Below the pieces are notes generated by a model that saw only the letters and a list, made by a program, of their open reading frames with translations, searched no databases and had not been told where the DNA came from. Of a stretch of DNA of 64,000 nucleotides, positions 12,839 to 50,883 are shown in pieces. Location: positions 326,040 to 390,039 of IMG/VR virus record IMGVR_UViG_3300036766_002289, one strand, 5' to 3'. The translations under genes were made by a program, and so were the position numbers. The first letter of the stretch is position 1; every line of letters starts with the position of its first letter. The DNA is from a virus.

Positions 12839-13252
12839 ATGCCGAAATACAGAGGAATAGTATACCCGCTAAGCAAGCATCATCAAGGGTTCTTGCATAA
12901 CGCTGACACGGATTTAGAGCAATTAAAATCCAATATGGCGACTATTATCTTGACAGAGCCTGGAGAACGGGTTTGCGAGCCTTATTACGGCACAATGATA
13001 CTTGGAGTCAACTTAAACAACCCTGAGCAAGTGGTGAAAGATACTTTTAGGCAGAATGTTGCAAAGGCTTTAAAAAGGTGGGAGAAAAGAATACAGGTTA
13101 ATGACGTTCAAATTAACCTCAACGTATACGAAGGTAATCTAATATTAATGATAAGTGTGTTCTTTATAGACCCTTTTAATTTAAAAAACAAAGAAGAATT
13201 GCACGTTCAAAAATCTCTTGGAGGAATTGATGGCAGACCTATGCCCTTTTGA
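12839..13252 (+). CDS. Baseplate wedge protein, gp25/GPW family
   Basis: A 137 aa protein matching the gp25 family in length and in its signature (residues 38-55: IILTEPGERVCEPYYGTMIL), where the conserved Glu-Pro-Gly-Glu-Arg leads into a glycine turn. The rest is the usual helix and paired strands. gp25 proteins nucleate sheath assembly at the baseplate. It follows the spike gene by eight bases and its end overlaps the gp6-like start by 23 bases. Confidence 0.92.
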   Translation: MPKYRGIVYPLSKHHQGFLHNADTDLEQLKSNMATIILTEPGERVCEPYYGTMILGVNLNNPEQVVKDTFRQNVAKALKRWEKRIQVNDVQINLNVYEGNLILMISVFFIDPFNLKNKEELHVQKSLGGIDGRPMPF

Positions 13253-14807
13253 TGTAACACCTTTGGCAACTGCCAAAGTTATTAATAATACTCCTGTTTA
13301 TAATCTAAACTACACGAGTCAAGATTATAGCTCGATGAAGACAAGGTTATTAGAACTCATACATGCTAATTTCAATGATGAGTTCAATGATTTCACCGAA
13401 TCTAGTTTAGCGATGATGTTAATTGAATGCTGGGCTTGGTTAGCTGACCTGTTGTCGTTCAAGATCGACCAAATTGCTAATGAGTTATTCATTGATACTG
13501 TAACGGAGCCAGAGAATGCGTTCAGAATATCTAAATTAGTGGGTTTCAAACCTCAACCACCATTACCATCGAGAGCAATGTTTATAGCCTCTAAGAATAG
13601 CCCACATTCCTTAGACGTGTCAATGAAAACACCTGTTGTGGTACAACTAGAAACAGGGGTGAGTGAGATCAGGTATGAATTGTTTGCGGCGGACGTTAAT
13701 AACAATCCTATTTTTGGCCAGGATATAGTGATACCTGCTGGTAGTACCTTCAACAAGTCAGTAATAGGTTTAGAAGGTTCAAGTCATTCTGCAAATTACA
13801 AGAGTACTGGTAAGGCTAACCAAACTTATACATTGCCTTATCCTTCAGTATTTTATAACTCTATTCAAGTTAGGTCTGATGATTTGGTATGGGAGCAGGT
13901 AGAAAATTTCACGGAAGCAAAGGTTAGACCAGAATACATTGTTGAATACGATGCGGATTACAGGGCAAAAATTACTTTTGGCAATGGTAAGGCAGGACTG
14001 ATTCCACCCCAAAACTCAGAGATTAAGATTCTATTTAGAATAGCTAACAGAAATACAACTGAAATTATAACTGGAGCCTTTGAAAACAAAGTTCACGTTT
14101 CAGTGCCTGGTATACCACATGGAATTACAGTGGACTTTAAGAACTTCACGAAGAGTGATTATGGCTATCCAGGTGACTCTATCAATGAGATTAGGAAAAA
14201 ACTACCAAGTTTCCTAAGAACCCAAGATAGGGCTGTTACTGGTGCAGATTATAAATATCTAGCAAATAGATTTATGTCAGCACACAATGGTTCTATAGGA
14301 AAAGCTACAGCCGCGTTAAGAAATCATGGATGTGCTGGTAATATAATTGATATAATCGTTTTAGCTCAAACTGGAAATTGGAAATTAGTCAAGGCAAACG
14401 ATAATTTAAAGAGTGAATTATTAGAAGATTTAAATGGCAAGAAAATATTCACTGATTACCTTTGCATTAAAGATGGAGAAATAATCTTAACGGATATTCA
14501 TGTAGATATTGTGCTAGACAAAATCAATAAAAAGAATGAAGAAGCGGTTAAAAGAAAGATTGTAGAAATTTTAGATTGGTTTTTTGATCTACCAAATTGG
14601 GAATTTGGTCAATCGTTAAAAGAGTCAGATATAGTGAAAACGTTGGCTAGAGTTTCAGAAGTTAGAAGTTTTGAAATTGCTTTCGTGACTGCTAAAAATG
14701 TAAATACGGGGTCTACGGAGAATGTTTTAACTCCTAATTACAATGAGATCATAAGACCAGATAATATAATAATAAACTTTGTTTACAAATCTGCTGGGGA
14801 GTTATAA
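13230..14807 (+). CDS. Baseplate wedge protein, gp6/gpJ-like
   Basis: A 525 aa protein. The ATG at 13230 has GGAGG five bases upstream; a TTG at 13218 is less likely. Residues 30-110 (NDFTESSLAMMLIECWAWLA, DLLSFKIDQIANELFIDTVT, then GFKPQPPLPSRA) and the later RTQDRAVTGADYKYLANRF are hallmarks of the gp6/Baseplate_J family, whose trimers or dimers make the inner ring of the baseplate wedge. It sits between gp25 and a P2 I-like gene, the standard order. Confidence 0.9.
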   Translation: MADLCPFDVTPLATAKVINNTPVYNLNYTSQDYSSMKTRLLELIHANFNDEFNDFTESSLAMMLIECWAWLADLLSFKIDQIANELFIDTVTEPENAFRISKLVGFKPQPPLPSRAMFIASKNSPHSLDVSMKTPVVVQLETGVSEIRYELFAADVNNNPIFGQDIVIPAGSTFNKSVIGLEGSSHSANYKSTGKANQTYTLPYPSVFYNSIQVRSDDLVWEQVENFTEAKVRPEYIVEYDADYRAKITFGNGKAGLIPPQNSEIKILFRIANRNTTEIITGAFENKVHVSVPGIPHGITVDFKNFTKSDYGYPGDSINEIRKKLPSFLRTQDRAVTGADYKYLANRFMSAHNGSIGKATAALRNHGCAGNIIDIIVLAQTGNWKLVKANDNLKSELLEDLNGKKIFTDYLCIKDGEIILTDIHVDIVLDKINKKNEEAVKRKIVEILDWFFDLPNWEFGQSLKESDIVKTLARVSEVRSFEIAFVTAKNVNTGSTENVLTPNYNEIIRPDNIIINFVYKSAGEL

Positions 14808-16637
14808 ATGGGCCGCAAGAAGTATACAGACAATCCTTCTGTCAACGATATTATTGTTTTCGACCTTAACACAGAAAACGATGACGGTCTGATTGCCGAC
14901 CCATTTTCCGTAGAAAAGATAACTATATTCTACCTAGAAAGAGGTTCGGGAAAAAATAACTTAAAATTAGAAAAAAAATTCAATAACCCAAGTTTACAAG
15001 AGCGGTATGATAGGCACAGAGAGATAGCTACAAGTGATCCTTCCCTAGATAACATCAAAATATTAAAGGACTTAAAAAACAGTCTAGACGCGACTGCTTT
15101 CACCACTCACATTTATTATAAAGAAGCTCAATTTGCCATGTCTACGCCAAGTCCCATATGGACAGCAGATGGTAAAGTAAGAAAGCTAGTTAATTTCGTT
15201 AATGAAAAAAAGCAAGTTTTGCCAGGAAGATTTTATTTTGCATGGCAACCGAAAGGTATGAGAGAAGGAACCTACATTATTAGATGGGAGTGGAAACTCG
15301 AAGAAAGTGGTACTATAAGAGCCGCAGAAAAAACTTTCACTATAAGTGCAGACCCCGAAGAGATTAAAAGCAACAACCTTAATCTAGCCCCAGAGGAGAA
15401 GTATGATTTTCTTTTGAGAAAGTACATGCCAACGATGTATCAAGTAAAGACTAAGCCCAATGATTTAACACCATATGTTTTAGAAAAACTAAATAAGTCT
15501 GTAGGTAAAGGATTTCAAGAAATAGAGAACATAGCAATCCAGCTTTCTACTTTACTCGACCCAGATACAATCAAAACTGATTTTCTACCTTTGCTTGCGA
15601 ACACTTTTGGTTTGACTTTAAGATCAGAGGACTCTGACGCATGGCGAAATCAAATAAGATATGCCCTCAATTTGTATAAAAAGAAAGGCACTTATGAAGG
15701 TTTAAGACAAGCCTTGGATAAGGCTAAGATTACTCTATTAAAACTAACTAATCTCTGGCAGGTTGTCTCCCGCAACATGTGGACAGATGGATTTTTGATT
15801 GACAGGGACATAAATCTTGAGACATTGATATTGGGTTATTTAACCAAAAAGCCAATTAATGATTTAGAAATAGAAATTCGTTCATCGGAAGATTTAAATT
15901 ATATAAAACTACCAAAAGAGATCATTAGTTTGCAGGAAGTGCAAGCCCCAGAAACGAAGACTGCTATTATCTGGCAAGGCGGCAATATTACGCCACAGAT
16001 ACCTTTACTAAAAGGGGATGTTATCAAGATAAGGTATGCATACAAAGATATACCAGATAGCGATTTAGCTATAGAAAAATATATAGACTCTTTGCCATTA
16101 GCGGATCAACGGGATGAAGCAGAGATAAAATACCCGCTCAAGAACTGGAACATAAAACTAATAGAAGAGGATGATCCTTTATTTAGTTTACTCATTACAG
16201 ATAGAAATCCTTTTCAGAGTCCAGTTGTGTTCGGCAAAATCAGGACAACATTCCTTTACAGTGAAAAGGTGTTCAACATGGATACCTACAATGGTAGTTT
16301 ATTCAACTCGAACAATCCATGTGATTTAGATAAAGATTTTATTGATACTTGTCATGGTGGTAGAAGCAGTAAGTTTAACGTTCATTTGGAATTTGATAAT
16401 GTTACTAATGATAAAATAAAAGAAGCTAAAGAAATAATCATAGATTATTCACCATTTCATGCTATGTTACATAACATAATCATAAGCAGTAAGACAACGG
16501 ACTATATCTTGCCCCCTATCGAGTCAATCAATAGCAGCATAAAAGAAAATAATAACAAGGACAAGGTTGGTGTAGGCGAGAATATAAACTGCAAAATCAA
16601 GTATAAAGACGGGAAAACAATAGAAGGGAGATTATGA
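14808..16637 (+). CDS. Baseplate wedge protein, gp7/P2 gpI-like
   Basis: A 609 aa protein starting directly after the gp6-like stop. Residues about 200-320 (YDFLLRKYMPTMYQ, IAIQLSTLLDPDTIKTDFLP, LLANTFGLTL, RYALNLYKKKGTYEGLRQAL) are the tail protein I domain (P2 gpI, T4 gp7 core), which pairs with gp6/gpJ in the wedge. The first 200 residues add an Ig-like beta domain, and the C-terminal 250 residues are another beta-rich region, probably linking to a fibre. It overlaps the following gene as ATGA. Confidence 0.85.
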   Translation: MGRKKYTDNPSVNDIIVFDLNTENDDGLIADPFSVEKITIFYLERGSGKNNLKLEKKFNNPSLQERYDRHREIATSDPSLDNIKILKDLKNSLDATAFTTHIYYKEAQFAMSTPSPIWTADGKVRKLVNFVNEKKQVLPGRFYFAWQPKGMREGTYIIRWEWKLEESGTIRAAEKTFTISADPEEIKSNNLNLAPEEKYDFLLRKYMPTMYQVKTKPNDLTPYVLEKLNKSVGKGFQEIENIAIQLSTLLDPDTIKTDFLPLLANTFGLTLRSEDSDAWRNQIRYALNLYKKKGTYEGLRQALDKAKITLLKLTNLWQVVSRNMWTDGFLIDRDINLETLILGYLTKKPINDLEIEIRSSEDLNYIKLPKEIISLQEVQAPETKTAIIWQGGNITPQIPLLKGDVIKIRYAYKDIPDSDLAIEKYIDSLPLADQRDEAEIKYPLKNWNIKLIEEDDPLFSLLITDRNPFQSPVVFGKIRTTFLYSEKVFNMDTYNGSLFNSNNPCDLDKDFIDTCHGGRSSKFNVHLEFDNVTNDKIKEAKEIIIDYSPFHAMLHNIIISSKTTDYILPPIESINSSIKENNNKDKVGVGENINCKIKYKDGKTIEGRL

Positions 16638-17140: not shown

Positions 17141-18184
17141 ATGAAAAAACATATAGCATTCCCACCGTTGACGCCTATTCAATTAGAAGTAATAAATGGA
17201 GCATTACTTGGGGATGGTTCATTGCACCATATTAAAAACACTAATGCAAATTGGAAATTTGTAACAAGTCAGAGTGCGTATGACAATAAAGGAATTGATA
17301 AATCAACTTATATGCAATATATCTTCGATGCATTGCAGCCATATAGCAGTAAATTAGCAAAATATGATAACAACAACACGATTTTAAACATAAATGGCAG
17401 GATGATAAATTTACATAAGGAAGATGACAAAAAATATCATTCGCTTACAACTCATTGTCATCCTGTCTGGACAAATATGGCAAAAGATTGGTACTTATGG
17501 AAAAATGGAAATCTAGTTTTAAAAGATAATAAAATAATTAAAATAGTTCCAGAAGAATTAAAATTGACGCCTCTTACATTGTGTATTTGGTTCATGGACG
17601 ATGGATCATTGGATAGCAAAAGAGGAAATGCTACTATACACACTGAAGGTTTTACTGTGAACGAATGCAATTTATTAATAGAAAAGTTAAAAGATGTTGG
17701 CATATTTGCCAAATTAAAATTCAAAAAAACATATCCTATAATTTTTATTGGGATTAAATCATATTACAAGTTATTGAGTTTAATTACGCCCCATGTGCAT
17801 TGGTCATGCTTCCAATATAAAATAGACAAATCATACTCTAAAAAACATCAACAAGGCGAACATCATTCACAAAGCAAACTGACGGAAATAAAAGTTAAAA
17901 AAATCATTGCATTATACAACGAAGGAATATATCAAAAAGATATTGCAAAACAATTCAATATATCACAAGCTACTATTTCGGAAATAGTAACTGGTAAAAA
18001 TTGGAGTCATTTAAATTTGGGTACTCCTGGAAGAAGGTTTTCTAAACTTTCTATGGACCAAAACCAATTAATCATAAAGGAAGTTAGAACAGGTGCAAAA
18101 CAAAAAGATATTGCTCAAAAATTCAATATAGATCAGTCAACTGTTTCTAAAATACTCAAAAATGTACAAATTATATCAATATAA
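17141..18184 (+). CDS. LAGLIDADG homing endonuclease with HTH tail
   Basis: A 347 aa protein. Two catalytic LAGLIDADG-type helices are seen: INGALLGDGS at 18-27 and CIWFMDDGS at 147-155, each ending in the metal-binding acidic residue. The family cuts a long site at intron-less or gene-less alleles. The last 100 residues hold two helix-turn-helix repeats (IYQKDIAKQFNISQATIS; AKQKDIAQKFNIDQSTVS) that would add DNA contacts. It is free-standing between the baseplate operon and a glycosyltransferase-like gene, has its own promoter and lacks a ribosome site. Its last 23 bases contain the start of the next ORF. Confidence 0.9.
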   Translation: MKKHIAFPPLTPIQLEVINGALLGDGSLHHIKNTNANWKFVTSQSAYDNKGIDKSTYMQYIFDALQPYSSKLAKYDNNNTILNINGRMINLHKEDDKKYHSLTTHCHPVWTNMAKDWYLWKNGNLVLKDNKIIKIVPEELKLTPLTLCIWFMDDGSLDSKRGNATIHTEGFTVNECNLLIEKLKDVGIFAKLKFKKTYPIIFIGIKSYYKLLSLITPHVHWSCFQYKIDKSYSKKHQQGEHHSQSKLTEIKVKKIIALYNEGIYQKDIAKQFNISQATISEIVTGKNWSHLNLGTPGRRFSKLSMDQNQLIIKEVRTGAKQKDIAQKFNIDQSTVSKILKNVQIISI

Positions 18185-19237: not shown

Positions 19238-19882
19238 ATGTCAAATAATTTAGAACTTTTCGAGAAAATCAATGTTTTAGTAGAAAAAGCACCTGAAAAT
19301 AGGCACAGTTACTACCAGTTGAAACACTTCATAATCGGTAAACAGCCTACCACACAATCACAATTATGGCAATGCCTAACGGAATTACAATCCAGAAAAG
19401 AAACAATTGATAATTTAACCATGCAAGTAGAAGACTTACGTGATGATTTGCTACTTTTACAAATTAAGGAGTCTAAGGTCAAAGTCGTTTATAGCGAAGA
19501 TGAGCAAGAAAAAGAAATTAAGCAGAGAAAAAGAGAAAGAAAAAGAGAATCAATTGTCAAAACTATAAATAAACTAGAAAAACAACTTGAGTTCGTTGTG
19601 CAGGAAGCAAGATTTTTCGTACAGGCTTTTGAAGCTATAGAGGAAGTGGAAAAATTAAAGGATTTTGATGATTACGATGCCCAAAAGGAACTTTGGGAAG
19701 CCAAGGTTTCAGAAGAAATCAATCTAAGGTTGCTATTCCATCAGCCTTTAAGTCCAGATACTTTAAAAACTGCATTATCGCTTCACGATGAGTCTAGGGT
19801 TAAGAAAGAAGTTTTAAAAATGATAGAAGTTGTAGAAAAAGCGAATATTAAAATGTTAGGAACTAAGAAAAAAGGGGAATAA
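19238..19882 (+). CDS. Coiled-coil protein upstream of fibre genes
   Basis: A 214 aa protein starting at 19238 after AAGGAG (an ATG at 19214 lacks one). It is dominated by heptad-like Leu/Ile spacing with dense Glu/Lys/Arg, including KQRKRERKRES near residue 105. No enzyme motif is visible. Its stop overlaps the next start by one base, so it is translated with the fibre genes. It may be a chaperone or a structural connector; function is not known. Confidence 0.65.
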   Translation: MSNNLELFEKINVLVEKAPENRHSYYQLKHFIIGKQPTTQSQLWQCLTELQSRKETIDNLTMQVEDLRDDLLLLQIKESKVKVVYSEDEQEKEIKQRKRERKRESIVKTINKLEKQLEFVVQEARFFVQAFEAIEEVEKLKDFDDYDAQKELWEAKVSEEINLRLLFHQPLSPDTLKTALSLHDESRVKKEVLKMIEVVEKANIKMLGTKKKGE

Positions 19883-20874
19883 TGAAGAATAAGCTTTCTT
19901 CGGGTGTAGACTATAAAAGTGGAACATTATCAGTATTTCCTAAAGGTAAAGATTCTAAACTAAACCTACATGAAGCCAAAAATAATGCCGAAGACGTACT
20001 TCGACAAACATTAGCCATCAATGGCAAAACCATGTTGTTGAATGACGCTAGTAAGTTCCCAAATAGTGGCATCATTAAAATAACCCCTGCCAGTTCAACA
20101 AATCTCCTAGATTCTTTCGAAGTCATCTTTTATGCCAAAAAGACTGGCAATCATTTATTGATGCTGCATAGAGGCTATGGTGGTTCACCAATAAACACAT
20201 GGCCTGCTGGCAGTAAGGTTTCTTGCCCATTAATGGCTGAGCATCACAACGTACTAAAAGACGCTGTAATGCAAATTCAAAAGAAGATCGGGGAAAAAAC
20301 TAATCCTTCTTCAGATTCAATCAATGGCATTTTGAATTATTTGGAAAATAAGTGGTTAGCCCCTAAGCCAGTTTTTAGGGCTTATCCGAGAATGGGACCA
20401 GCCCCTTTGCCTGTAACCTTTCACAACTTTTCTACTGGATTTGGTGGTAGATTCTTATGGGATTTTGGAGATGGTACGAGTAGCACAGAGAAAAATCCCA
20501 CACACATTTACCATGACGAAGGTAAATACAAAGTCAGGCTTACAGTCATTTCTGTCAATGGTTCACAAGGATTAACAGAAAAAGGCGATTACGTTGAAGT
20601 TAACAATGAGCAACTTCCTTCATTTTTTTATGTTACACCTTTACAAGGTTCTATAACAACAGAATTTGAATTAGTAGATCAAAGTGACGGTGACATAGCA
20701 GAGCGTCATTGGTTTTTTGGTGATGGTACAGACGTTACCGTTAGCAATCCTAATATCCACTCTGTTATACATCGTTATGAAAAAGAAGGTAATTACATTC
20801 CTTCACTGATGATAAGACTAGCGAACAACAAAACAAAGAGAGTACATTTGCCAGAAGGAATTATAGTAATATGA
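19882..20874 (+). CDS. PKD-domain virion fibre protein
   Basis: A 330 aa protein. Residues 1-160 form a module shared with the next two genes, with strands ending in a long helix (HHNVLKDAVMQIQKKIGEKT). Residues about 172-250 are a PKD domain (FRAYPRMGPAPLPVTFHNFS, WDFGDGTSSTEKNPTHIYHD, GKYKVRLTV), and a second, more divergent one follows (FYVTPLQGSITTEFELVDQS, WFFGDGTDVTVS, HRYEKEGNYIPSLMIRL). PKD folds are Ig-like spacers in surface adhesins. No signal peptide, as expected for a virion protein. It probably forms a short tail fibre or its base. The end overlaps the next gene as ATGA. Confidence 0.75.
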   Translation: MKNKLSSGVDYKSGTLSVFPKGKDSKLNLHEAKNNAEDVLRQTLAINGKTMLLNDASKFPNSGIIKITPASSTNLLDSFEVIFYAKKTGNHLLMLHRGYGGSPINTWPAGSKVSCPLMAEHHNVLKDAVMQIQKKIGEKTNPSSDSINGILNYLENKWLAPKPVFRAYPRMGPAPLPVTFHNFSTGFGGRFLWDFGDGTSSTEKNPTHIYHDEGKYKVRLTVISVNGSQGLTEKGDYVEVNNEQLPSFFYVTPLQGSITTEFELVDQSDGDIAERHWFFGDGTDVTVSNPNIHSVIHRYEKEGNYIPSLMIRLANNKTKRVHLPEGIIVI

Positions 20875-22976
20875 GTTATCCGTTTAAGTTTGATACAGAT
20901 TCTGAACTATACTTGGTAAAAGACGCTTTAATAGTGCCATTAAGTGTGGACCATCATCCTGGGCAAAACATGATTATTGCGGATGGAGACATAAGTAAAT
21001 TCCCACTAAAAGGCATTATAACTCTCGTTGACCAAGACAGTCCAGCACATGAAAGAGCAGTGTCTTTTCATTATGGTCGTAGAACAAGTAGAGAATTTTT
21101 GGACTTGGAATTAACAGATAACTCTGTTGATTGTTTCAAACCTAGAAAATTCACCGTGATTACTATGCAGGTAATGCGAGAACACCGTGAAGCAATCAAA
21201 AATGCCATTTTTGAAATAGAAAAATTCTTAGGCCCAAAACATAAAGTAGATACTGAACCTAACGGAGATACTATATTCGGAAGGATTAACTTTTTAAGAA
21301 AAATACTATTTGCCCCTAAAGCATGGTTTGAAGCTGACAAGGTAACTGGAGCAGCACCTTTTACTGTAAATTTTACATTCACTGGTACTGGCAATACGGG
21401 ACCAGTGGGAGATGTATTATATATATGGAATTTTGGTGGTGATGATGAAACACAAACCACTGAACCTAAAATAGAAAAACTGTTCTTAGACGCTGGCAAT
21501 AAAACAATATCACTGACTATTAAAAATGAGTATGGTGAAGATTCAGTATCTTTCCCAGATATGATTAAGGTCAAAGGTCAAGCACCAGAACAAGCCCTTA
21601 TTAGATTTTCGCCACAACAGCAGCAGCTTAATTTCATGCAAAATGATGTTATGCCTAAGATCAGAACACAGATTCGCCAGCCAGTGACAATCGAAATACC
21701 ACAAAAAATGGTAAGTGATAAAAGAACTTTTGCTGGGGAAATGATCGACCCCAATACTTCAAGGGTGGCAGATGCGATTACAAATTATACATGGAATTTA
21801 GGTGACGACTTACCACATGCAAATTCGCCAAAGACTAAAGCACTATACAGTGTGGGTGGATTGTATGATTTAGTGGTCAGGACTGATACTGCGTCTGGAA
21901 CTCACAGAACTACTGTTTATCCTAACGCAATAGATGTTGTAGAATCTGTCAATTTATGGTTATGGACTATCAACAATACTGCAATTAGGTCACATGAATT
22001 TGGACTTTTAAGCGAAGTGTTTAAAACTTCCAGCAACACTTCAGAGATCGAAATAAATGATTCTTTTATCGACATGCCCCACACCAGAGAAAAATTTGAG
22101 TTCTGGCGTAATAATGGCTCGGCAAAAAAGAATGAAATGAAATCTGGACAGGGTGGTGATTTACTAATGTATTGGGCAAGTGGTAGGGACAAAGGATACG
22201 ACCCAATTGCAGAAAAGATCAATTTCACCCAATATAATGGATTCGCAGACACTTATACTACCAAAGATTCCATCCCAGGCAAGCCTTGGAATTGGGTGTC
22301 TTTAGCTAGCAACAGTAAAATATACTTTATTCTTGGTGGCAGTCTTAATGGGCCTATGCCCACTTTATCAATGACTAGTCAAACAAAAAGTACTTATGAC
22401 ATGGATTCTTCAACAATCATCAATGAAGAAATTGAATATAGGAACTACAAAAATGGTGCGCACGATCTAATGAAACATCCTGATGTTTTTGATTCAAATT
22501 TTGACGCCGCACATGGTTATTTTGCTGCTTACAGGACAGCCTGGAAAAACAATACAGGATACATAATCAGGAATTCATCTTTAGGCGAATACTTCTCTTT
22601 CCATGATTTTTACAGAACAGAAGGCACAATCGGTTTACCTTGTCAAAACATAGTGAAGCTGCCAAATTTACCTGGCGATAACCATAAAGACGGCGATTTA
22701 GTAGCATTGAATAAAGGCATATACTTCTTTAACAATTCTGGAATGACTTACTGTTTTGACGGGTCCGCTGGTACTTGGGAGCTAGTGACACCGCATAATA
22801 AGGTGGCTATCAATGACTTGGATGGTTTGATGGCAACCTCCGACTTGGATTCTAAGGCTTATATGGTTTTGGAAGGTGTTAATAACGGATTTATTAAATT
22901 CAACGAACTAGATATGTCTTATACAACATTGAATCAAAAACCACTAGATAAACAGTGGCACATCACACTTTTTTAA
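20871..22976 (+). CDS. PKD-domain tail fibre/adhesin
   Basis: A 701 aa paralogue of the preceding protein over the first 150 residues, including the helix EHREAIKNAIFEIEKFLG. PKD-like domains follow at about 155-235 (WFEADKVTGAAPFTVNFTFT, IWNFGGDDETQTTEP) and 295-355 (YTWNLGDDLPHANSP). The last 350 residues are a separate domain, rich in Asn, Gly and aromatic residues, without family resemblance, and would be the receptor-binding tip or a trimerisation region. Starts by ATGA overlap. Confidence 0.72.
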   Translation: MSYPFKFDTDSELYLVKDALIVPLSVDHHPGQNMIIADGDISKFPLKGIITLVDQDSPAHERAVSFHYGRRTSREFLDLELTDNSVDCFKPRKFTVITMQVMREHREAIKNAIFEIEKFLGPKHKVDTEPNGDTIFGRINFLRKILFAPKAWFEADKVTGAAPFTVNFTFTGTGNTGPVGDVLYIWNFGGDDETQTTEPKIEKLFLDAGNKTISLTIKNEYGEDSVSFPDMIKVKGQAPEQALIRFSPQQQQLNFMQNDVMPKIRTQIRQPVTIEIPQKMVSDKRTFAGEMIDPNTSRVADAITNYTWNLGDDLPHANSPKTKALYSVGGLYDLVVRTDTASGTHRTTVYPNAIDVVESVNLWLWTINNTAIRSHEFGLLSEVFKTSSNTSEIEINDSFIDMPHTREKFEFWRNNGSAKKNEMKSGQGGDLLMYWASGRDKGYDPIAEKINFTQYNGFADTYTTKDSIPGKPWNWVSLASNSKIYFILGGSLNGPMPTLSMTSQTKSTYDMDSSTIINEEIEYRNYKNGAHDLMKHPDVFDSNFDAAHGYFAAYRTAWKNNTGYIIRNSSLGEYFSFHDFYRTEGTIGLPCQNIVKLPNLPGDNHKDGDLVALNKGIYFFNNSGMTYCFDGSAGTWELVTPHNKVAINDLDGLMATSDLDSKAYMVLEGVNNGFIKFNELDMSYTTLNQKPLDKQWHITLF

Positions 22977-23004: not shown

Positions 23005-26000
23005 ATGCCAAAGGCAATCCCAAAACCAGTATACCCAATTGCTTTAGATTCAAATTACACTCTATTTAGCACACATAATAGTGCGCAAACTCTCCTTGCC
23101 AAAGATTTAAGCATTACCAGTGATGTAATAGAAATCTATCCTAAGAGTGCTAATGATGCCGATGTTTGGGCCGAAAATGGTTTTGTCACGATTGAGAAAG
23201 AAATTATCTACTATGACAGTGTTACCAAAGATAAAAACAGCAAAATAACCCAATTAAAAGACTGCATAAGGGGAGTAGAAGGAGAAGTTAAAGCGTATGT
23301 CTCTGGCACTGCTATTTACGCAAACGTCGTTGCCCAATTACATAACCAATTAGTGGATGCAATCGTAGCCATAGAAAGCACAATTGGTGATATTTCTGAC
23401 ATGCTGAAGGTTGGAAATGACCTCAAAACACAGCAAAAAGTCAGAAAAAACCTTGTGCCTAAAAACATGGCAATGACTCAAATGGACACAGCCTTTACTG
23501 CGTCATTGCATCAGAATTTAACCGCGATGCTAGGTTGCGCTCCAGTTCCAGATGATGCTTGCCCAGATGTGGAATTTGAATTCAACATTCTAGGTTCTAC
23601 TGCTGAGTATTGTGTAAGAATTTTTGGAGATTATACAGCATTTGAAGTCGATTTTGGTGATGGTAATTCAACTACAACTCAATTGTCTGGCACCATAACA
23701 TTCAATGGAGGTAATCCCACAGTAACAGTCACAACCCCAACATGCACCCTTGTACAAATGCCGACAACTCCAGATGGTTGCGAAGCACCAGTATTGCCTA
23801 ATCCTTCAATTCCTTTTGTAATTGCGGTACCGTTTATACCAGATTGGCCTGGCTTTACTCCAAACAAGAATATATGTCCAGGTCCATTGTTCAGTTTGCC
23901 ACCAATTCAGTTTCCTAAATCTGAACTATGTTCTGTAATACCTAGTACATGCATCCCAAGTGTAATTATTTCTGTTATAGAATCCTGCAAGACCCCACAG
24001 ATCATCAGAATTGTCAGTCCTTGTAGAATCAGCATTATATCCTTAGTAGGATGTGAATTGCCTAGCATTATATCCCTAGTAGGGTGCTGTCCGCCTAGTA
24101 TAATCAGTGTAATTGCACCTAGTTTTAATTGCATAAGTTTCTGTCAGGTTCCAAGTTTTGAATGCATAAGTTTTTGCCAAGTCCCAAGCTTTGACTGCAT
24201 AAGTTTTTGTATGCCGCCGAGCATGGCCCCTGTTAGTTTTGCACCATTCCCAAGCATTGGTACTGTGTCTTTTGATGTTGCTATAAGCCTAAGCCCATTA
24301 TGCTTCTGCGAACCACCGAGTTTTGCACCTATTAGCTTTACTCCGTTCCCAAATATTAGCGCTGTATCGTTTGATGTTAATGTCGCATTGAGCTTAAGCC
24401 CAATATGCTTCTGTGAACCGCCAATTATTAGTTTTGCTCCATTCCCAAGCATAGGCGCTGTATCTTTTGATGTTGCTATAAGCTTAAGTCCATTATGCTT
24501 CTGCGAACCACCGAGTTTTGAGAAGATAAGTTTTGCTGAATTCCCGAGCGTTGGGAAAATATCATTCGATATCGCTGTTGAATTGAGTTTGAGTCCAATA
24601 TGTTTTTGTGACCCACCTAGTTTTGTGTGTATTGATTTTTGCACTCCACCAAGTTTTGGGATTGTTAGCTTTGCTCCGTTTCCAAGTATAGGGGCTGTAT
24701 CATTTGATGTTAATGTCGCACTGAGCCTAAGTCCAGTATGTTTCTGTGAACCACCTAGTTTTGCAGCTATTAGCTTTAATCCGTTCCCAAGCATAGGTGC
24801 GGTATCGTTTGATGTAATGCTTAGTTTGACTCCGTTGTGTTTCTGTGAACCACCTAGTTTTGCAGCTATTAGCTTTGCGCCGTTCCCAATCATAGGCCAA
24901 GTGTCATTTGATGTTGCTATAAGTCTAAGCCCATTATGTTTCTGTGAGCCACCAAGTTTTCAGTGCATTAGTTTTTGTCCACCACCTAATTTCGACCAAG
25001 TAAGTTTCGCACCTATAAGTTTTACTTCTTTCCCGAGCATTGGGACTGTATCGTTTGACGTTGCTATAAGTCTAAGCCCATTATGTTTCTGTGAGCCACC
25101 GAGTTTTTCTCAAATTAGTTTTGCACCATTCCCAAGTATAGGGATGGTGTCTTTTGACGTTCTCCTAAACGCAAGTTTGACTCCAATATGTTTCTGTGAG
25201 CCGCCAAGTTTCCAATGTATTAGTTTCTGCCATGTGCCTAGTTTTGATGTTGTTAGTTTTACTACACCACCAAGCTTCCACTGTGTAAGTTTCTGTGAAC
25301 CACCAAGCTTTAGCTTGATAAATTTTGCTACACCACCGAGCATTGTACCGATTAGCTTTGCACCATTCCCGAGCATTGGGACTGTATCCTTTGATGTTGC
25401 TTTGAACGCAAGTATAAGTCCTATATGTTTTTGCGAACCACCGAGTTTTTCACTTATTAGTTTTGCACCATTCCCAAGCTTGGGGGTAGTATCTTTCGAT
25501 GTGCTTTTAAATTTGAGCCTAAGTCCAATATGTTTCTGTGAAGTGCCAAGCTTTGCATGTATTAGTTTTTGTGAATTCCCAAGCATTGGCAAAGTATCTT
25601 TTGATGTTTTATTAAGTTTAAGTCCAGTTAGTTTTACTACGCCACCAAGCTTCCATTGTGTAAGTTTCTGTGAGCCACCAAGCTTCCATTGTGTAAGTTT
25701 CTGTGAGCCACCAAGCTTCCATTGTGTAAGTTTCTGTGAGCCACCAAGCTTTAGTTTAGTAAATTTTAATGCACCGCCAAGTTTTGCACTTGTTAGCTTT
25801 GCTCCATTTCCAGAAATTGGCAAGGTTTCATTCGACGTTATGTTGAATGCTAGTTTAAGTCCAGTATGTTTCTGTGAACCACCAAGCTTTGAATGCATAA
25901 GTTTCTGTCCTACTCCAAACTTTAACTTAGTGAGTTTTACTACTCCACCAAGTTTTCAATGTATAAGTTTTTGTGAGCCGCCAAGCTTTGGATGTGTGAG

Positions 26001-27339
26001 TTTTTGCGCACCACCAAGTTTTAGCTTAGTAGGATTTACTGCTCCACCAAGTATTGCACCTATTAGTTTTGCTCCGTTCCCAACAGTATCAACAGTGTCA
26101 TTTGACGTTATTGTAGACTTAAGTTTGAGTCCAATATGTTTCTGCGAACGACCGAGCTTTGATGCCATAAGCTTTGCCCCATTCCCAAGTATTGGTGCTG
26201 TATCTTTCGATGTTGCATTAAACTTAAGTTTAACTCCAATATGTTTTTGTGAGCCACCGAGCTTTAGTTGTGTAAGTTTCTGTACCCCAAGCTTTAACTT
26301 GGTGAGTTTCGCCACTTTGAGTTTTGATAAAGTATCATTTACAGTACCAAGCTTCGCTTGTGTAAGTTTTTGCAGCCCACCAAGCTTTGAGAAAATAAGT
26401 TTTACTGAATTCCCAAGTGTTGGTAAAGTATCGTTCGATATTGCAGTAGACTTAAGTTTAAGTTCTATATGTTTCTGTGACCCACCAGTTTTTCAGTGTG
26501 TCAGTTTCTGTCCACCACCATCATTTAATGATGTAAAGTTTGACGTTGCACTAAATTTAAGCTTAACTCCAGTATGTTTTTGTGAGCCACCGAGCTTTGA
26601 TTGCATAAGTTTTTGTGAGCCACCAGATTTTGATTGCGTAAGTTTTTGTCCTGTGCCGAGCTTCGATTGTATAAGTTTCTGCACACCACCAACTTTTGCA
26701 CCTATAAGTTTTACAACCCCAAGTTTTGGGCTTATTAGTTTTGATAAGCCACCGACTATAAGTGTTGTATGGGGAACACCGCCGCCATTATCGTGTACTG
26801 TGACTGTGGCGTGCCCATCGTCTTCAGGGTTTAGTAGTCCTAATCCATTTGGAAGTGCTGCACCTCAAACAGATTCTGATTTTAGTGAAGATTTTGACAT
26901 GAATGTACCTCTCACTTATAAAGACTTAGGTATACCAGAAGAAATTAGGCTTATAGGCCCTGACTTGCCTAGAGAAATATTTATTAGGGGTATAATTCCT
27001 GATGAAATTACAATCAAGGGAGATATACCAAGAAGCATTGAAGTTCATTCTGATATACCGCATAAGATCATGTTGGATGCAACGGATGTACCTAGAAAGA
27101 TCATGGTAGAGATGGCCCCTAATTTCCCATCCACATTAAGAATGGATGTTACGCACACTCTACAGGTCACAGGGATACCAAAATCTATAGAAATAATTGA
27201 AAATATTCCTAGAACTATTCAATTATTGATGCCAGAGAATCCAGTAGTTGAATTGAAATTCAATCAGGTGGATATAGAACTGAAACCAAGTGCGGACCTA
27301 GAAAAAATGTTTTCTAATTTAATGATCCCGCTTAAATAA
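23005..27339 (+). CDS. Giant 11-residue-repeat fibre protein
   Basis: A 1444 aa protein after an AAAGGAG site. Residues 1-150 are the N-terminal module shared with the two preceding fibre proteins, ending in the helix LHNQLVDAIVAIESTIGDIS. Residues 190-250 hold a PKD-like remnant (FEVDFGDGNSTTT). From about residue 308 to 1255 the chain is an almost unbroken series of 11-residue units of the form P-P-S-F-x-x-I/V-S-F-x-x, in three flavours: Cys-rich (PPSFHCVSFCE), FPSIGxVSFDV, and LSLSPICFCE. The three often follow one another as a 33-35-residue super-repeat, about 17 times. Residues 1300-1420 use a second short repeat (IPREIFIRG, IPDEITIKG, IPRSIEVHS). The protein has very few charged residues in the repeat. 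A long Cys-containing beta-structured fibre is the likeliest form. I know of no named family. Confidence 0.8.
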   Translation: MPKAIPKPVYPIALDSNYTLFSTHNSAQTLLAKDLSITSDVIEIYPKSANDADVWAENGFVTIEKEIIYYDSVTKDKNSKITQLKDCIRGVEGEVKAYVSGTAIYANVVAQLHNQLVDAIVAIESTIGDISDMLKVGNDLKTQQKVRKNLVPKNMAMTQMDTAFTASLHQNLTAMLGCAPVPDDACPDVEFEFNILGSTAEYCVRIFGDYTAFEVDFGDGNSTTTQLSGTITFNGGNPTVTVTTPTCTLVQMPTTPDGCEAPVLPNPSIPFVIAVPFIPDWPGFTPNKNICPGPLFSLPPIQFPKSELCSVIPSTCIPSVIISVIESCKTPQIIRIVSPCRISIISLVGCELPSIISLVGCCPPSIISVIAPSFNCISFCQVPSFECISFCQVPSFDCISFCMPPSMAPVSFAPFPSIGTVSFDVAISLSPLCFCEPPSFAPISFTPFPNISAVSFDVNVALSLSPICFCEPPIISFAPFPSIGAVSFDVAISLSPLCFCEPPSFEKISFAEFPSVGKISFDIAVELSLSPICFCDPPSFVCIDFCTPPSFGIVSFAPFPSIGAVSFDVNVALSLSPVCFCEPPSFAAISFNPFPSIGAVSFDVMLSLTPLCFCEPPSFAAISFAPFPIIGQVSFDVAISLSPLCFCEPPSFQCISFCPPPNFDQVSFAPISFTSFPSIGTVSFDVAISLSPLCFCEPPSFSQISFAPFPSIGMVSFDVLLNASLTPICFCEPPSFQCISFCHVPSFDVVSFTTPPSFHCVSFCEPPSFSLINFATPPSIVPISFAPFPSIGTVSFDVALNASISPICFCEPPSFSLISFAPFPSLGVVSFDVLLNLSLSPICFCEVPSFACISFCEFPSIGKVSFDVLLSLSPVSFTTPPSFHCVSFCEPPSFHCVSFCEPPSFHCVSFCEPPSFSLVNFNAPPSFALVSFAPFPEIGKVSFDVMLNASLSPVCFCEPPSFECISFCPTPNFNLVSFTTPPSFQCISFCEPPSFGCVSFCAPPSFSLVGFTAPPSIAPISFAPFPTVSTVSFDVIVDLSLSPICFCERPSFDAISFAPFPSIGAVSFDVALNLSLTPICFCEPPSFSCVSFCTPSFNLVSFATLSFDKVSFTVPSFACVSFCSPPSFEKISFTEFPSVGKVSFDIAVDLSLSSICFCDPPVFQCVSFCPPPSFNDVKFDVALNLSLTPVCFCEPPSFDCISFCEPPDFDCVSFCPVPSFDCISFCTPPTFAPISFTTPSFGLISFDKPPTISVVWGTPPPLSCTVTVACPSSSGFSSPNPFGSAAPQTDSDFSEDFDMNVPLTYKDLGIPEEIRLIGPDLPREIFIRGIIPDEITIKGDIPRSIEVHSDIPHKIMLDATDVPRKIMVEMAPNFPSTLRMDVTHTLQVTGIPKSIEIIENIPRTIQLLMPENPVVELKFNQVDIELKPSADLEKMFSNLMIPLK
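23926..26770 (+). repeat. Protein-level 33-nt repeat array
   Basis: About 2.8 kb made of roughly 85 in-frame units of 33 bases (some 39) encoding P-P-S-F-x-x-I/V-S-F-x-x and variants. Most units differ at synonymous sites while keeping the protein pattern, so the array is old and under selection at protein level. The minus strand is also open in long stretches because of the biased codons. Confidence 0.9.
25642..25740 (+). repeat. Three identical 33-bp tandem copies
   Basis: Three base-for-base identical 33-bp units (25642-25674, 25675-25707, 25708-25740), each encoding PPSFHCVSFCE. Identity here, against divergence elsewhere in the array, indicates a recent duplication. Confidence 0.95.
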
Positions 27340-27341
27340 TT

Positions 27342-28172
27342 ATGAAAATAAAAAAGCATAGAAATAAAAACGATTACGCGCTTGCTAATAGTGGCGTTTG
27401 GGTAAGAGATTTTACTAAACCTTTAATCAGAAGTTTAGATATAAACAATCTAATTTCAATTCCAGACATGCAAATCATGTTAGAAAATGAAATTAAGAAT
27501 CATGATAAACTATATCAAAAAATAGAGACGGAAGATTTCAATCATGATAAAATTGTAATTATTGGAGATGGTTATAAACAAAAAGAAAAACAAAAACTAC
27601 TAGAAAGCTTGCCTGCCGATGTTCTGGTCATAGGTGTGAATAAGGCATTTGCCATGTGGGAATGTAATCACCGTTTAAATTACTATGTAGTTAACAACCC
27701 TTACGATGAATGTTTATTCTATTACCCGCCTTCTGTAAAATATTGGCCAAAATGTATTGCCTCCACGAGGACAAATCCAGACTTTTTAAGGAATTATCGT
27801 GGGACGACTTACTTATACAATCCAGTGCCTGATGAAATTTATAGTGGTATTAGGACTGAGAGTAATTATTTTGTGGACGATTATAGAAATCCAGTTTGTG
27901 CAGCACTATGCTTGGCTTATAAGTTTAAAGTTAAGAAACTCTTACTACTATCATTGCTGGACTTATATGAAGAAGAACGGCCAGGGACAGAACAGCATAA
28001 AGGTTTATGGATTTATCCACAACAAAAAACTGCGCAGTCTATAATTGATGCTAATTTATATTGGTTACAAAAAGCAAAAATTAGCGTAACTTACAATGAT
28101 AGCGGCCCAGATTATGAGTTTGCTTCATATATAACCGATAGCGAGGTCAAAGGATATTTCAATGTCAAATAA
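27342..28172 (+). CDS. DUF115-like glycosyltransferase-like protein
   Basis: A 276 aa protein. Residues 70-130 (KIVIIGDGYKQ, VLVIGVNKAFAMWE, LNYYVVNNPYDEC) follow the Rossmann pattern of DUF115/MptE-like proteins, which include motility-associated glycosyltransferases. Later, VKKLLLLSLLDLYEEERPG supplies another strand and acidic loop. A role in sugar transfer to virion or host surface would suit its position after the fibre genes and before a GT9-like gene. No ribosome site; CTTAAATA at 27331 may be a late promoter. Moderate confidence on fold, low on substrate. Confidence 0.5.
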   Translation: MKIKKHRNKNDYALANSGVWVRDFTKPLIRSLDINNLISIPDMQIMLENEIKNHDKLYQKIETEDFNHDKIVIIGDGYKQKEKQKLLESLPADVLVIGVNKAFAMWECNHRLNYYVVNNPYDECLFYYPPSVKYWPKCIASTRTNPDFLRNYRGTTYLYNPVPDEIYSGIRTESNYFVDDYRNPVCAALCLAYKFKVKKLLLLSLLDLYEEERPGTEQHKGLWIYPQQKTAQSIIDANLYWLQKAKISVTYNDSGPDYEFASYITDSEVKGYFNVK

Positions 28173-29644: not shown

Positions 29645-30643
29645 ATGTTCAAAATAAAAAAGCCACCTAAAAACGATGGCAAAATGTCTATAAAAGAATT
29701 CTACGGGAAAAGAAATAAAGTCTTGTTGATTAGAAATGCAAGAGGTATAGGAGATATTCTCAACTGTAGAATGCTATTCAAAGCTTTCAAAGACATGATG
29801 CCAGAAGTATATCTGGTATTCGCGTGCTTCAAAGAGTATAAAAGCCTAGTACAGGATCATCCTTATATAGATGAAGTTGTTGATGTAAGAACTGTAGTAA
29901 AAGAAGACTACCTAATATCTTATGACATAAGCACTTGCTGCATATATCATGAGTCTCTGAAAGCAACCAAAAACGAGACACATAGAGCAGATATTTGGGC
30001 TGAACACTGTGGTTTAACTATTGAAGAACATGACATGTTTTTACCATATATAGACCCAGAAATACTCTCATGTGGACATATCAGAATACAACAACTTAAA
30101 AAAACTAGTTTATCAAGCAATAGGCATGGCCCTACTGTGCTGCTATGTACTAAGGCACATGACGTGCAAAGGTCGCTTACGCAAAGCCAAACTGTAGCTT
30201 TAGTAGAAATATTGAGACGAAAAGGTTTATTTGTATATTCGACTCACATCTCAGATTTACCATTACTCGAAAGCTTGGGAGTACCAGTTTTAAAAGATGC
30301 ATCTCTTGAAGAATGGATGAGTTACATTCATGCTGCGGACTATGTTGTTACGGTTGATACGGGGACTTTTCATTATGCGGGCGGAATTAAGAAACCATTA
30401 ATGGGTATTTTTACTCACGTAGACGGCAAATTAAGAGGTAAATATTATGATTTTGTCCTAGTACAAAAGCATAGAGATAATGGTAATTGGCCATGTGGTC
30501 CATGCTATACTTTCATCAATTGCACCAATCCAAGGTGTAAAGACCCCAACTCTCTACATGAGTTAAAACCCTGCTTGACTGAGATAACTGTGGAAGAAAT
30601 GGAAAAAGGAGTAGATAAAATGTTGCAAGTATGGCCTATATAA
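29645..30643 (+). CDS. Glycosyltransferase family 9-like (heptosyltransferase-like)
   Basis: A 332 aa GT-B-type protein. The start KVLLIRNARGIGDILNCRML is the typical opening of ADP-heptose:LPS heptosyltransferase relatives, with Gly-Ile-Gly-Asp in the first loop. The second domain has the family's ASLEEWMSYIHAADYVVTVD followed by TGTFHYAGGIKKPLMGIF, where the Asp-Thr-Gly loop meets the sugar nucleotide. A Cys cluster near the end (WPCGPCYTFINCTNPRC) may bind metal. Probably modifies virion or host glycans. No ribosome site. Confidence 0.8.
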   Translation: MFKIKKPPKNDGKMSIKEFYGKRNKVLLIRNARGIGDILNCRMLFKAFKDMMPEVYLVFACFKEYKSLVQDHPYIDEVVDVRTVVKEDYLISYDISTCCIYHESLKATKNETHRADIWAEHCGLTIEEHDMFLPYIDPEILSCGHIRIQQLKKTSLSSNRHGPTVLLCTKAHDVQRSLTQSQTVALVEILRRKGLFVYSTHISDLPLLESLGVPVLKDASLEEWMSYIHAADYVVTVDTGTFHYAGGIKKPLMGIFTHVDGKLRGKYYDFVLVQKHRDNGNWPCGPCYTFINCTNPRCKDPNSLHELKPCLTEITVEEMEKGVDKMLQVWPI

Positions 30644-30868: not shown

Positions 30869-31885
30869 ATGCCAATCGGTGCAGATATAGGTACCTACAA
30901 TCTTGTAATGTGTACTAGAAATAAAGACGGCGGTTATATTTATGACCGAGAAGTAAACGCATTCCTTGAAATAGCACTAGAAGACCGCATGGTTCTAGAA
31001 ATGATGCGCACTTGCGACGACCCCGTACCCGTTATAGAAAGAGCAACCAAAGCTTACGCTCTTGGAGAAAAAGCGGTTCGTATGGCTTATACGTTATCAC
31101 AACTTGAACTTAAAAGACCTATGAAAGATGGTTGTGTCAATCCAAAAGAAAAAGATGCCTATGAAGTCATGAATATGATGTTACACAGTCTTCTTGAAGG
31201 TAATGTCAAAACCGATAAAGATGTTATTTACTATAGTGTTCCTGCAAATGCTTTGAATGAAGAAACAGACGCTGATTATCATTCTAAAATGTTGGCATCT
31301 ATGTTGGAAGCATATAAGTCAGATGAAGGATTTACAGTAACACCATTTCCTATTAATGAAGGATTAGCCCTTGTTTACGCAGAACTTAAATCTAACAACT
31401 ATACTGGTATCGGGATAAGTTTCGGTGCTGGAATGGTCAATTTATGCTTTGCAATGTTCGGTGTTCCTGTATTTCAGTTTGCACTAGTAAATTCAGGAGA
31501 CTGGATAGATAAAATGGCCGCGAAAGCAACTGGAGAAGGTATAACTTTTATTAACCAAGAAAAAACCAAGATGAATTTGTCAAAAGAACCAAAAGACTTG
31601 GTAGAACGTGCAATACAAACTCAATACAAAATAATGATAGAAAAAACAGTAAATGGAATCAAAAAGGGGTTAGGAGAAAGTGGCAAAAAGGCGCGCTCAG
31701 ACAAGCCTATTGACATAGTGATTGCAGGCGGCACATCAATTCCTATTGGATTCGATGTACTTTTCAGAGATGTAGTCCAGCAAGCAAACTTGCCTATTAG
31801 TGTTGGGTCTATAGTAAGGCCCAATGACCCGCTATACAGTGTGAGTCGTGGCTGTTTAATAGCAGCTGAAAACTCATTGAAATAA
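30869..31885 (+). CDS. Actin-like ATPase (ParM/MreB/Hsp70 fold)
   Basis: A 338 aa protein after AAGGAG. The three nucleotide-binding elements of the actin fold are present: phosphate-1 GADIGTYNLV at 3-12, phosphate-2 GIGISFGAGMVNL at about 182-194, and the adenosine motif IVIAGGTSIPIGF at about 286-298. The length suits ParM-like or MreB-like filament proteins. Phage relatives form filaments that position DNA or replication sites. Context: directly followed by an unknown acidic protein that might be an adaptor; no parC-like repeat array was seen. Polymer formation is inferred. Confidence 0.8.
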   Translation: MPIGADIGTYNLVMCTRNKDGGYIYDREVNAFLEIALEDRMVLEMMRTCDDPVPVIERATKAYALGEKAVRMAYTLSQLELKRPMKDGCVNPKEKDAYEVMNMMLHSLLEGNVKTDKDVIYYSVPANALNEETDADYHSKMLASMLEAYKSDEGFTVTPFPINEGLALVYAELKSNNYTGIGISFGAGMVNLCFAMFGVPVFQFALVNSGDWIDKMAAKATGEGITFINQEKTKMNLSKEPKDLVERAIQTQYKIMIEKTVNGIKKGLGESGKKARSDKPIDIVIAGGTSIPIGFDVLFRDVVQQANLPISVGSIVRPNDPLYSVSRGCLIAAENSLK

Positions 31886-38436: not shown

Positions 38437-38744
<308 letters not shown>

Positions 38745-49610: not shown

Positions 49611-49635
49611 AATGTTGCATCTAAAGGCGGCAAAT

Positions 49636-50883
49636 ATGTGGGTGGCTGTAAATAAAAAAAACATAGTAATAGCAATTTCTGAAAAACCTTTCGCTATTAC
49701 TGGCTACGAAGTAAAAGAAAGACCTAATGAACCAAAAACAGATTGGCATAAATTAATAGGCACCAGACTAAAACAAGACCTTAAAAAAGTGAAAGACTTG
49801 AGAGTAGCTTTCATTTGTAACTGGAACGATTGCTGTGGTATTAGTACGTATAGTAAATATCTAATAGATTCAATAACACCAAAAGTCAAAGAAATCCATG
49901 TTTTCTCAGAAATGGTAAAAGACGTAAAAGACGACCCGAGCTTTGTTACTCGTTGTTGGGAACGTGGACAAAGCTTAAAACCACTTATTGACAAATTACA
50001 AGCGTGGAAACCCGATCTAATCATAATGCAACATGAGTTTGGCATTTTTCCAAAAGCAACCTATTTCTTACAGTTACTCCAAGGTATTGATGATATTCCT
50101 TATGTCGTGACGATGCATTCAATATACGAACACCTTGACAAATCTGTTTGCACCGCTGCTGTCAAAAACATTGTAGTCCATACTAACGAAGGCAAAGATG
50201 TTCTGAAAAAGTTAGGCAACGCTAATAACATTTACGTGATCCCGCATGGCTGCGTTAAGTATGATGAATCCCAAAAAGGTGAGCTTTGGAACATTTTCCA
50301 AACTCCGTATACAATAGTTCAGTTTGGTTTTGGGTTTTTCTACAAAGGCGTGGATAGAATGCTAGACGCTTTGCATTATCTGAAAAAGCACGATAAGAAG
50401 TTCCAGAACATATTCTATTGCTATCTATGCAGTGATAATACGCACACAAGTCTAGTACATCAACAGTATTACGACTTTTTGATGAAAAAGGTTGATGAGC
50501 TTTCATTACATGACAACGTTGTGATTATAAGGAAGTTTCAGACGGATCAGATGATAAACAGTTATCTTAGAACTTGTAAGATAGCTACTTTTCATTACAT
50601 AAGTGACCCTAAGAACATGGTTTACGGTGCAAGTGGTGCAATACGTATAGCAATGGCCTGTGGCACTCCAGTAGTAGCAAGTAACTGCCATCAGTTCGAC
50701 GATTTGCAAGGAGTAGTCCCAAGACCTAGAGATTACATAGAATTAGCCAAAGAAATTGACGAAATATTTAGTAACGAGAAGCACAAGCAGGCCCTTATTA
50801 AGAAAGCTAACGACTATATTGATGATAATAATTGGGATGTAACTGCGGATAGGTATATTAATCTTTATTATTCAATAAGTTAA
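49636..50883 (+). CDS. Glycosyltransferase family 4-like
   Basis: A GT-B glycosyltransferase of 415 aa from the ATG at 49636 (423 aa from 49612). The N-terminal domain starts at DLRVAFICNWNDCCGISTYS near residue 55, the usual glycine-rich donor loop. The C-terminal domain has IVQFGFGFFYKGVDRMLDAL and ASGAIRIAMACGTPVVASNC, the GT4 nucleotide-sugar site. It probably transfers sugar to virion proteins, DNA bases or host glycans. A hairpin lies just upstream. Its end overlaps the next, convergent gene by four bases. Confidence 0.82.
   Translation: MWVAVNKKNIVIAISEKPFAITGYEVKERPNEPKTDWHKLIGTRLKQDLKKVKDLRVAFICNWNDCCGISTYSKYLIDSITPKVKEIHVFSEMVKDVKDDPSFVTRCWERGQSLKPLIDKLQAWKPDLIIMQHEFGIFPKATYFLQLLQGIDDIPYVVTMHSIYEHLDKSVCTAAVKNIVVHTNEGKDVLKKLGNANNIYVIPHGCVKYDESQKGELWNIFQTPYTIVQFGFGFFYKGVDRMLDALHYLKKHDKKFQNIFYCYLCSDNTHTSLVHQQYYDFLMKKVDELSLHDNVVIIRKFQTDQMINSYLRTCKIATFHYISDPKNMVYGASGAIRIAMACGTPVVASNCHQFDDLQGVVPRPRDYIELAKEIDEIFSNEKHKQALIKKANDYIDDNNWDVTADRYINLYYSIS

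Follow-up and report, generated by a model that had tools for sequence, protein, structure and literature searches.

The window analyzed here, a 64,000-nucleotide stretch covering positions 326040–390039 of a 390,039-base IMG/VR virus record, encodes a protein of 1444 residues whose long central array of eleven-residue repeats obeys a strict rule: every array cysteine is one of a pair held within a single unit. The protein belongs to a family whose members keep the two ends and swap the middle. The reading that we favor, with somewhat better than even confidence, takes it as a virion protein of the tail-fibre type from a T4-like jumbo phage, with a baseplate-docked N-terminus that would be followed by a PKD spacer and a trimeric beta shaft with Cys-stapled chains. 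It is thus a fibre of a known general kind, unnamed in the libraries searched, with an unusual cysteine design.

The gene occupies positions 23005..27339, and its ATG is immediately preceded by a ribosome-binding site, AAAGGAGAAG; the fibre gene, its parts, and the baseplate, PKD and MptE-like genes described below all lie on the plus strand. Relatives were found in L002, L009, L021, L024, L028 and many others. Residues 1–150 (23005..23454) form an attachment-like region with an HNQLVDAI..IE..IGD motif that is kept in relatives. This region is homologous to the N-terminus of an upstream PKD protein (neighbour 1, 19882..20874; hhalign E 7e-12), which is in turn homologous to a second one (neighbour 2, 20871..22976; BLASTP 1e-17), and the suggestion in an earlier note, made from the letters alone, that the three share an N-terminus is therefore upheld. 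A PKD-like domain with a DFGDG motif follows at approximately residues 186–250 (23560..23754). It was recognized from profile and fold matches, namely a profile hit on the PKD domains of collagenases (E 0.006) and a match of the model of one relative, L010, to PKD1 of PrtV (TM 0.68 by target). The likeness to the PKD families PF18911/PF00801 is confined to this motif and the predicted fold, in one small part of the protein that scores under the Pfam cut-off: the window protein had no match at that threshold, and the best of the fibre relatives scored 20.1 bits, where the cut-off demands 27. A transition stretch of P-S-x-I-I-S repeats (23896..24114), evident in the unit listing, runs into the array (residues 371–1248, 24115..26748); comparable PSVIS-type repeats make up the middle of the relative L023. 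The conserved C-terminal region (residues 1249–1444, 26749..27339) consists of a WGTPP segment and then I-P-x-x-I-x-V repeats, with 57% identity to L002 and identities down to 32% among viral-contig relatives. The earlier note had placed the feature at 23926–26770; the repeat there is real, but that span is only the middle of the open reading frame, and the note mentioned neither the C-terminal region nor the MptE-like partner gene, nor the broad family in which the middle can be exchanged. Antisense open reading frames across the array were set aside as a by-product of repeat composition.

The array comprises 80 core units over 878 residues, mostly 11 residues apart, and its self-identity at lags of 11 and 33 residues is 0.33 and 0.29, respectively, compared with 0.104 ± 0.010 in shuffles. 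The repetition first described as about 85 units over some 950 residues is thus genuine, although the count was too high. Four unit types can be told apart, a (PPSFxxISFAP), b (FPSIGxVSFDV), c (xLSLSPxCFCE) and d (PPSFxCISFCx), usually in the order d(0–n)-a-b-c, and they give 16 CFC-bearing super-repeats of 33–35 residues plus extra single units. A super-repeat of this length, put at about 17 copies beforehand, is therefore present, but the structure need not follow it as a period: from one b unit to the next the distance is 2, 3, 5, 7 or 8 units in the window and as much as 14 in relatives, so that a fixed three-unit rung is not required. The array contains 72 Cys, 179 Ser+Thr and 5 His, and neither Tyr nor Trp; with 10 Lys+Arg it is indeed nearly devoid of positive charge, but its 62 Asp+Glu do not fit the former description of almost no charged residues. 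Units with identical residues use different synonymous codons, including TGT and TGC for Cys, which argues that the array is maintained at the protein level and did not arise as a DNA artefact, while three perfect copies of one 33-bp unit (25641..25751; Tandem Repeats Finder, 100% match) show that duplication has also been recent.

Within the units, positions 4, 7 and 9 are hydrophobic and nearly invariant and positions 6, 8 and 10 are Ser, Cys or variable, which produces an alternation of hydrophobic and polar residues around the F9 core. In triple beta-spiral and triple-stranded beta-helix fibres, such as the adenovirus shaft and the C-terminus of T4 gp5, short repeats in which hydrophobic residues alternate and turns contain Pro or Gly likewise form long trimeric shafts; the window array resembles them in its short alternating-hydrophobic repeats and differs in repeat length (11 here) and sequence, a likeness without a confirmed fold. 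In our reading, each unit would make a proline turn and then one short beta strand with the I-S-F core, the side chains at 7 and 9 pointing toward the core and those at 6, 8 and 10 toward the other face, and three chains would probably be wound together into a shaft. The N-terminal region common to the two PKD neighbours would dock at the baseplate, the PKD domain would serve as a spacer, the 80 units would make up the long shaft, and the distal or chain-registering end would be the conserved C-terminal region of the P-x-x-I-x-I type.

A different architecture, which we regard as fairly unlikely, is a single-chain beta-solenoid in which the a-b-c super-repeat of 33–35 residues forms one rung, as in parallel beta helices, with the cysteines along one face. 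An AlphaFold2 monomer model of residues 437–754, built from 17 aligned segments, does show regular repeated strands, with one long strand per b-c junction, usually at intervals of 32–35 residues (pTM 0.46). However, its mean pLDDT is 51, and Foldseek searches with the array model against the PDB and viral folds gave no match at E ≤ 0.001, with PDB match probabilities of 0.02 or less; in addition, the variable spacing of b units and the freely inserted d units would break the register of such rungs. On the unit spacing, a solenoid with strictly three units per rung is unlikely. The full-length model of L010, a Cys-poor relative, has a pLDDT of 43 overall and a low pTM, with regular strands in its C-terminal region and a PKD domain that is mostly at pLDDT 73–82 and matches solved PKD domains. 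The Foldseek matches obtained with these predicted models, none of them at E ≤ 0.001, are meaningful for the PKD part only, and the monomer models are too weak for fold assignment and cannot test a trimer.

The cysteines are regularly placed, as had been claimed from the translation, and the regularity is stricter than claimed. All 72 array cysteines of the window lie in units with exactly two, of which 20 have C6 and C10 (CISFC) and 16 have C8 and C10 (CFC); the remaining units have none, and single-Cys units do not occur. Among 72 deduplicated proteins of the family there are 291 paired units against 10 single-Cys units, 7 of which are in L028, where C8 is changed to Arg. This strict pairing of all array cysteines of the window, as CISFC or CFC and never singly, is new here. 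In 64 of these 291 units the 15 residues to either side are free of further Cys, and for these 64 the partner must be in the same unit or another chain, or be a metal; the next unit will not do. Residues 6 and 10 of an extended strand are separated by about 13 Å, a distance too great for a direct bond, so that the partner of a CISFC cysteine would be in another chain or another unit, or would be a metal. The near-invariant hydrophobics at 4, 7 and 9, with Ser, Cys or variable residues at 6, 8 and 10, indicate that the cysteines face away from the core. We prefer a scheme in which both cysteines of a unit, placed on the 6/8/10 face, are linked to the equivalent unit in an adjacent chain, through a disulfide or a shared metal; such bonds would explain why each unit needs both cysteines or neither. 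Up to 36 levels of the shaft would be stapled in this manner, presumably making a long fibre stiff and stable.

The nearest working analogy is provided by fibres in which an HxH motif, present in three symmetry-related copies, binds iron, as described for T4 gp37, P2 gpV and R-pyocins (PMC6116203, PMC11705849). In these trimeric shafts each chain gives a short metal-binding motif, whereas the window fibre has Cys instead of His and 36 motifs per chain; with five His in all, the window array has no repeated HxH motif, and neither the window protein nor its profiles matched gp37 or related solved fibres in the PDB. The analogy suggests that the cysteine pairs could be metal or iron-sulfur ligands, the CxC and CxxxC motifs of three chains binding ions at many levels. 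The i, i+2 spacing of CxC is that of HxH, and the pairs are strict even in isolated units. Yet the HxH sites are buried in the shaft, whereas here the core-facing residues look like the hydrophobics at 7 and 9 and not the Cys positions, and the window pairs are mostly CxxxC and not CxC, so that a ligand role of this kind seems rather doubtful.

Relatives were sought with the N- and C-terminal parts of the protein, as the full-length sequence recovered none, probably because of low-complexity masking. A search of 50,697 phage records gave a single significant relative, from the uncultured 595-kb phage LR756511; accessions neighbouring this one are handled as uncultured megaphages (PMC9723777). 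Its unannotated orthologue (L002, 12001–14025) has the same domain order and synteny as the window fibre, 56–57% identity in the N- and C-terminal parts, and PPSFDCISFC units with paired cysteines, but at 674 residues it carries only about ten units, nearly all of the Cys type d, and no a-b-c super-repeats. N-terminal profiles retrieved 159 related stretches from IMG/VR viral contigs, 80 of which were kept for analysis, and genome contigs yielded two N-terminal relatives, one of which lies on a short contig that had been binned with a Neisseriaceae MAG. The expectation that no named family has this repeat was borne out by searches of Pfam, PHROGs, NCBIfam and PDB sequences, and the window protein as a whole likewise matched no Pfam, PHROGs or NCBIfam family. 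Matches of its relatives in these three libraries are weak or to unknown-function families, for example a weak one to phrog_7808 in L028. Weak hits to phiKZ-like virion proteins, at E of about 3, were also obtained. Literature searches found no description of a Cys-rich or repeat jumbo-phage fibre.

Across the family the ends are conserved and the middle varies from none in L036 (488 aa) to that of L066 (1711 aa). It may consist of Cys-free PxxIxI repeats (L010–L017, L025), of Cys arrays (the window clade; L043, L066, L091) or of proline-rich or Kelch-like stretches (L027/L079, L059, L099, L101). The fibre loci of L079, L059, L099 and L101 have proline-rich tandem repeats with YFAGG/Kelch-like or other Cys-rich stretches, and their proteins reach 2947 residues. 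Arrays of an NFGP type, in L064, L073, L074 and L080, show another pattern, in which cysteines of consecutive units recur at a distance of 10 residues (VCSLINFGPxxCPT), together with single NFCST cysteines. When the Cys-array label is placed on a tree of 67 N-termini, two changes are needed, both forced by well-supported branches; judging from the tree, the Cys arrays may have had two origins or may have been transferred. Arrays differ even among phages that are about 80% identical in the N-terminus, and they would lengthen and shorten through duplication and loss of units. Taken together, these sequences define a large family of fibre proteins from uncultivated T4-like jumbo phages, one that has no name and in which the shaft repeat varies by lineage.

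Such turnover invites the question of whether the cysteines are cross-linked at all, as they could be small residues tolerated at the surface and copied with whole units while the array evolves by neutral slippage. The perfect triple duplication, the divergence of arrays between otherwise similar phages and the existence of Cys-free relatives would fit this account, and the strict pairing could partly stem from the copying of whole units and not from selection on each pair. It is also important to stress that the Fisher p-values for pairing assume independence, which copied units violate, so that they overstate the case. Against slippage, the d units have clearly diverged, with 17 distinct peptides among the 20 in the window and TGT and TGC mixed, without the loss of one Cys. 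The same CISFC rule is also found in a second, separate clade, and this recurrence is a better argument than the p-values. On balance, we consider this account unlikely, and cross-linked or metal-bearing cysteines remain our preferred reading.

The neighbourhood of the gene bears on where the protein acts. Genes for a gp25-like wedge protein, a gp6-like wedge protein and Tail_P2_I lie upstream (12839..16637), and a block of g19214, both PKD genes and the fibre gene is conserved in 76–80 of 81 related loci, with a homologue of PKD neighbour 2 upstream of the fibre in 80 of the 81. As is generally expected of a tail fibre of a contractile-tailed phage, the protein is thus encoded with baseplate genes and has an N-terminus in common with adjacent fibre-like proteins, which supports the earlier proposal of a probable virion fibre. 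Genes for a T4-type terminase, portal and major capsid protein (gp23) occur further along the same genome. PKD domains are also found in secreted enzymes and surface proteins, but a head or whisker fibre or a lysis-released adhesin is very unlikely given that the gene follows baseplate genes and Tail_P2_I and shares its N-terminus with two PKD neighbours in a conserved block.

Directly downstream of the fibre gene is one for an MptE-like, PF01973-related protein of 276 residues (27342..28172), and of the 52 complete loci, 50 have such a gene after that of the fibre, mostly within 120 bp. Of the 23 members of this protein family, 13 match PF01973 (best E 2.6e-6). PF01973-related proteins include the flagellin-modifying Maf proteins, which makes the neighbour a possible Maf-type glycosyltransferase and makes it a reasonable idea that it may glycosylate the Ser-rich shaft. 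The fullest version of our proposal, which we offer as possible though somewhat doubtful, is a new architecture: a trimeric beta shaft stapled covalently or loaded with metal at up to 36 levels, reached in two jumbo-phage clades of a repeat-swapping family, and possibly modified by the adjacent enzyme.

These observations define a large fibre family of uncultivated jumbo phages that is essentially absent from the annotated phage records searched, and whose shafts would be assembled from interchangeable short beta repeats. The strict pairing rule suggests a specific design, open to experiment, by which a biological fibre could be cross-linked or carry metal, and the conserved neighbourhood provides markers with which to find such phages and possibly their receptor machinery.

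Several other features of the window deserve mention. A LAGLIDADG homing endonuclease with HTH domains (17141–18184) lies between Tail_P2_I and the fibre genes, and the T4-like portal gp20 (46357–48888) contains an intein. An actin-like protein (30869–31885) matches Pfam Volactin (PF25216, named after a haloarchaeal actin) at E 1e-65, and in 36 of the 52 complete loci it is conserved at a distance of 2.5–7 kb downstream of the fibre. Two more glycosyltransferases are encoded at 29645–30643 (GT9-like) and 49612–50883 (group 1), and a TCATCG hexamer is repeated in 12.8 perfect copies at 38514–38669, adjoining a 39-bp repeat.
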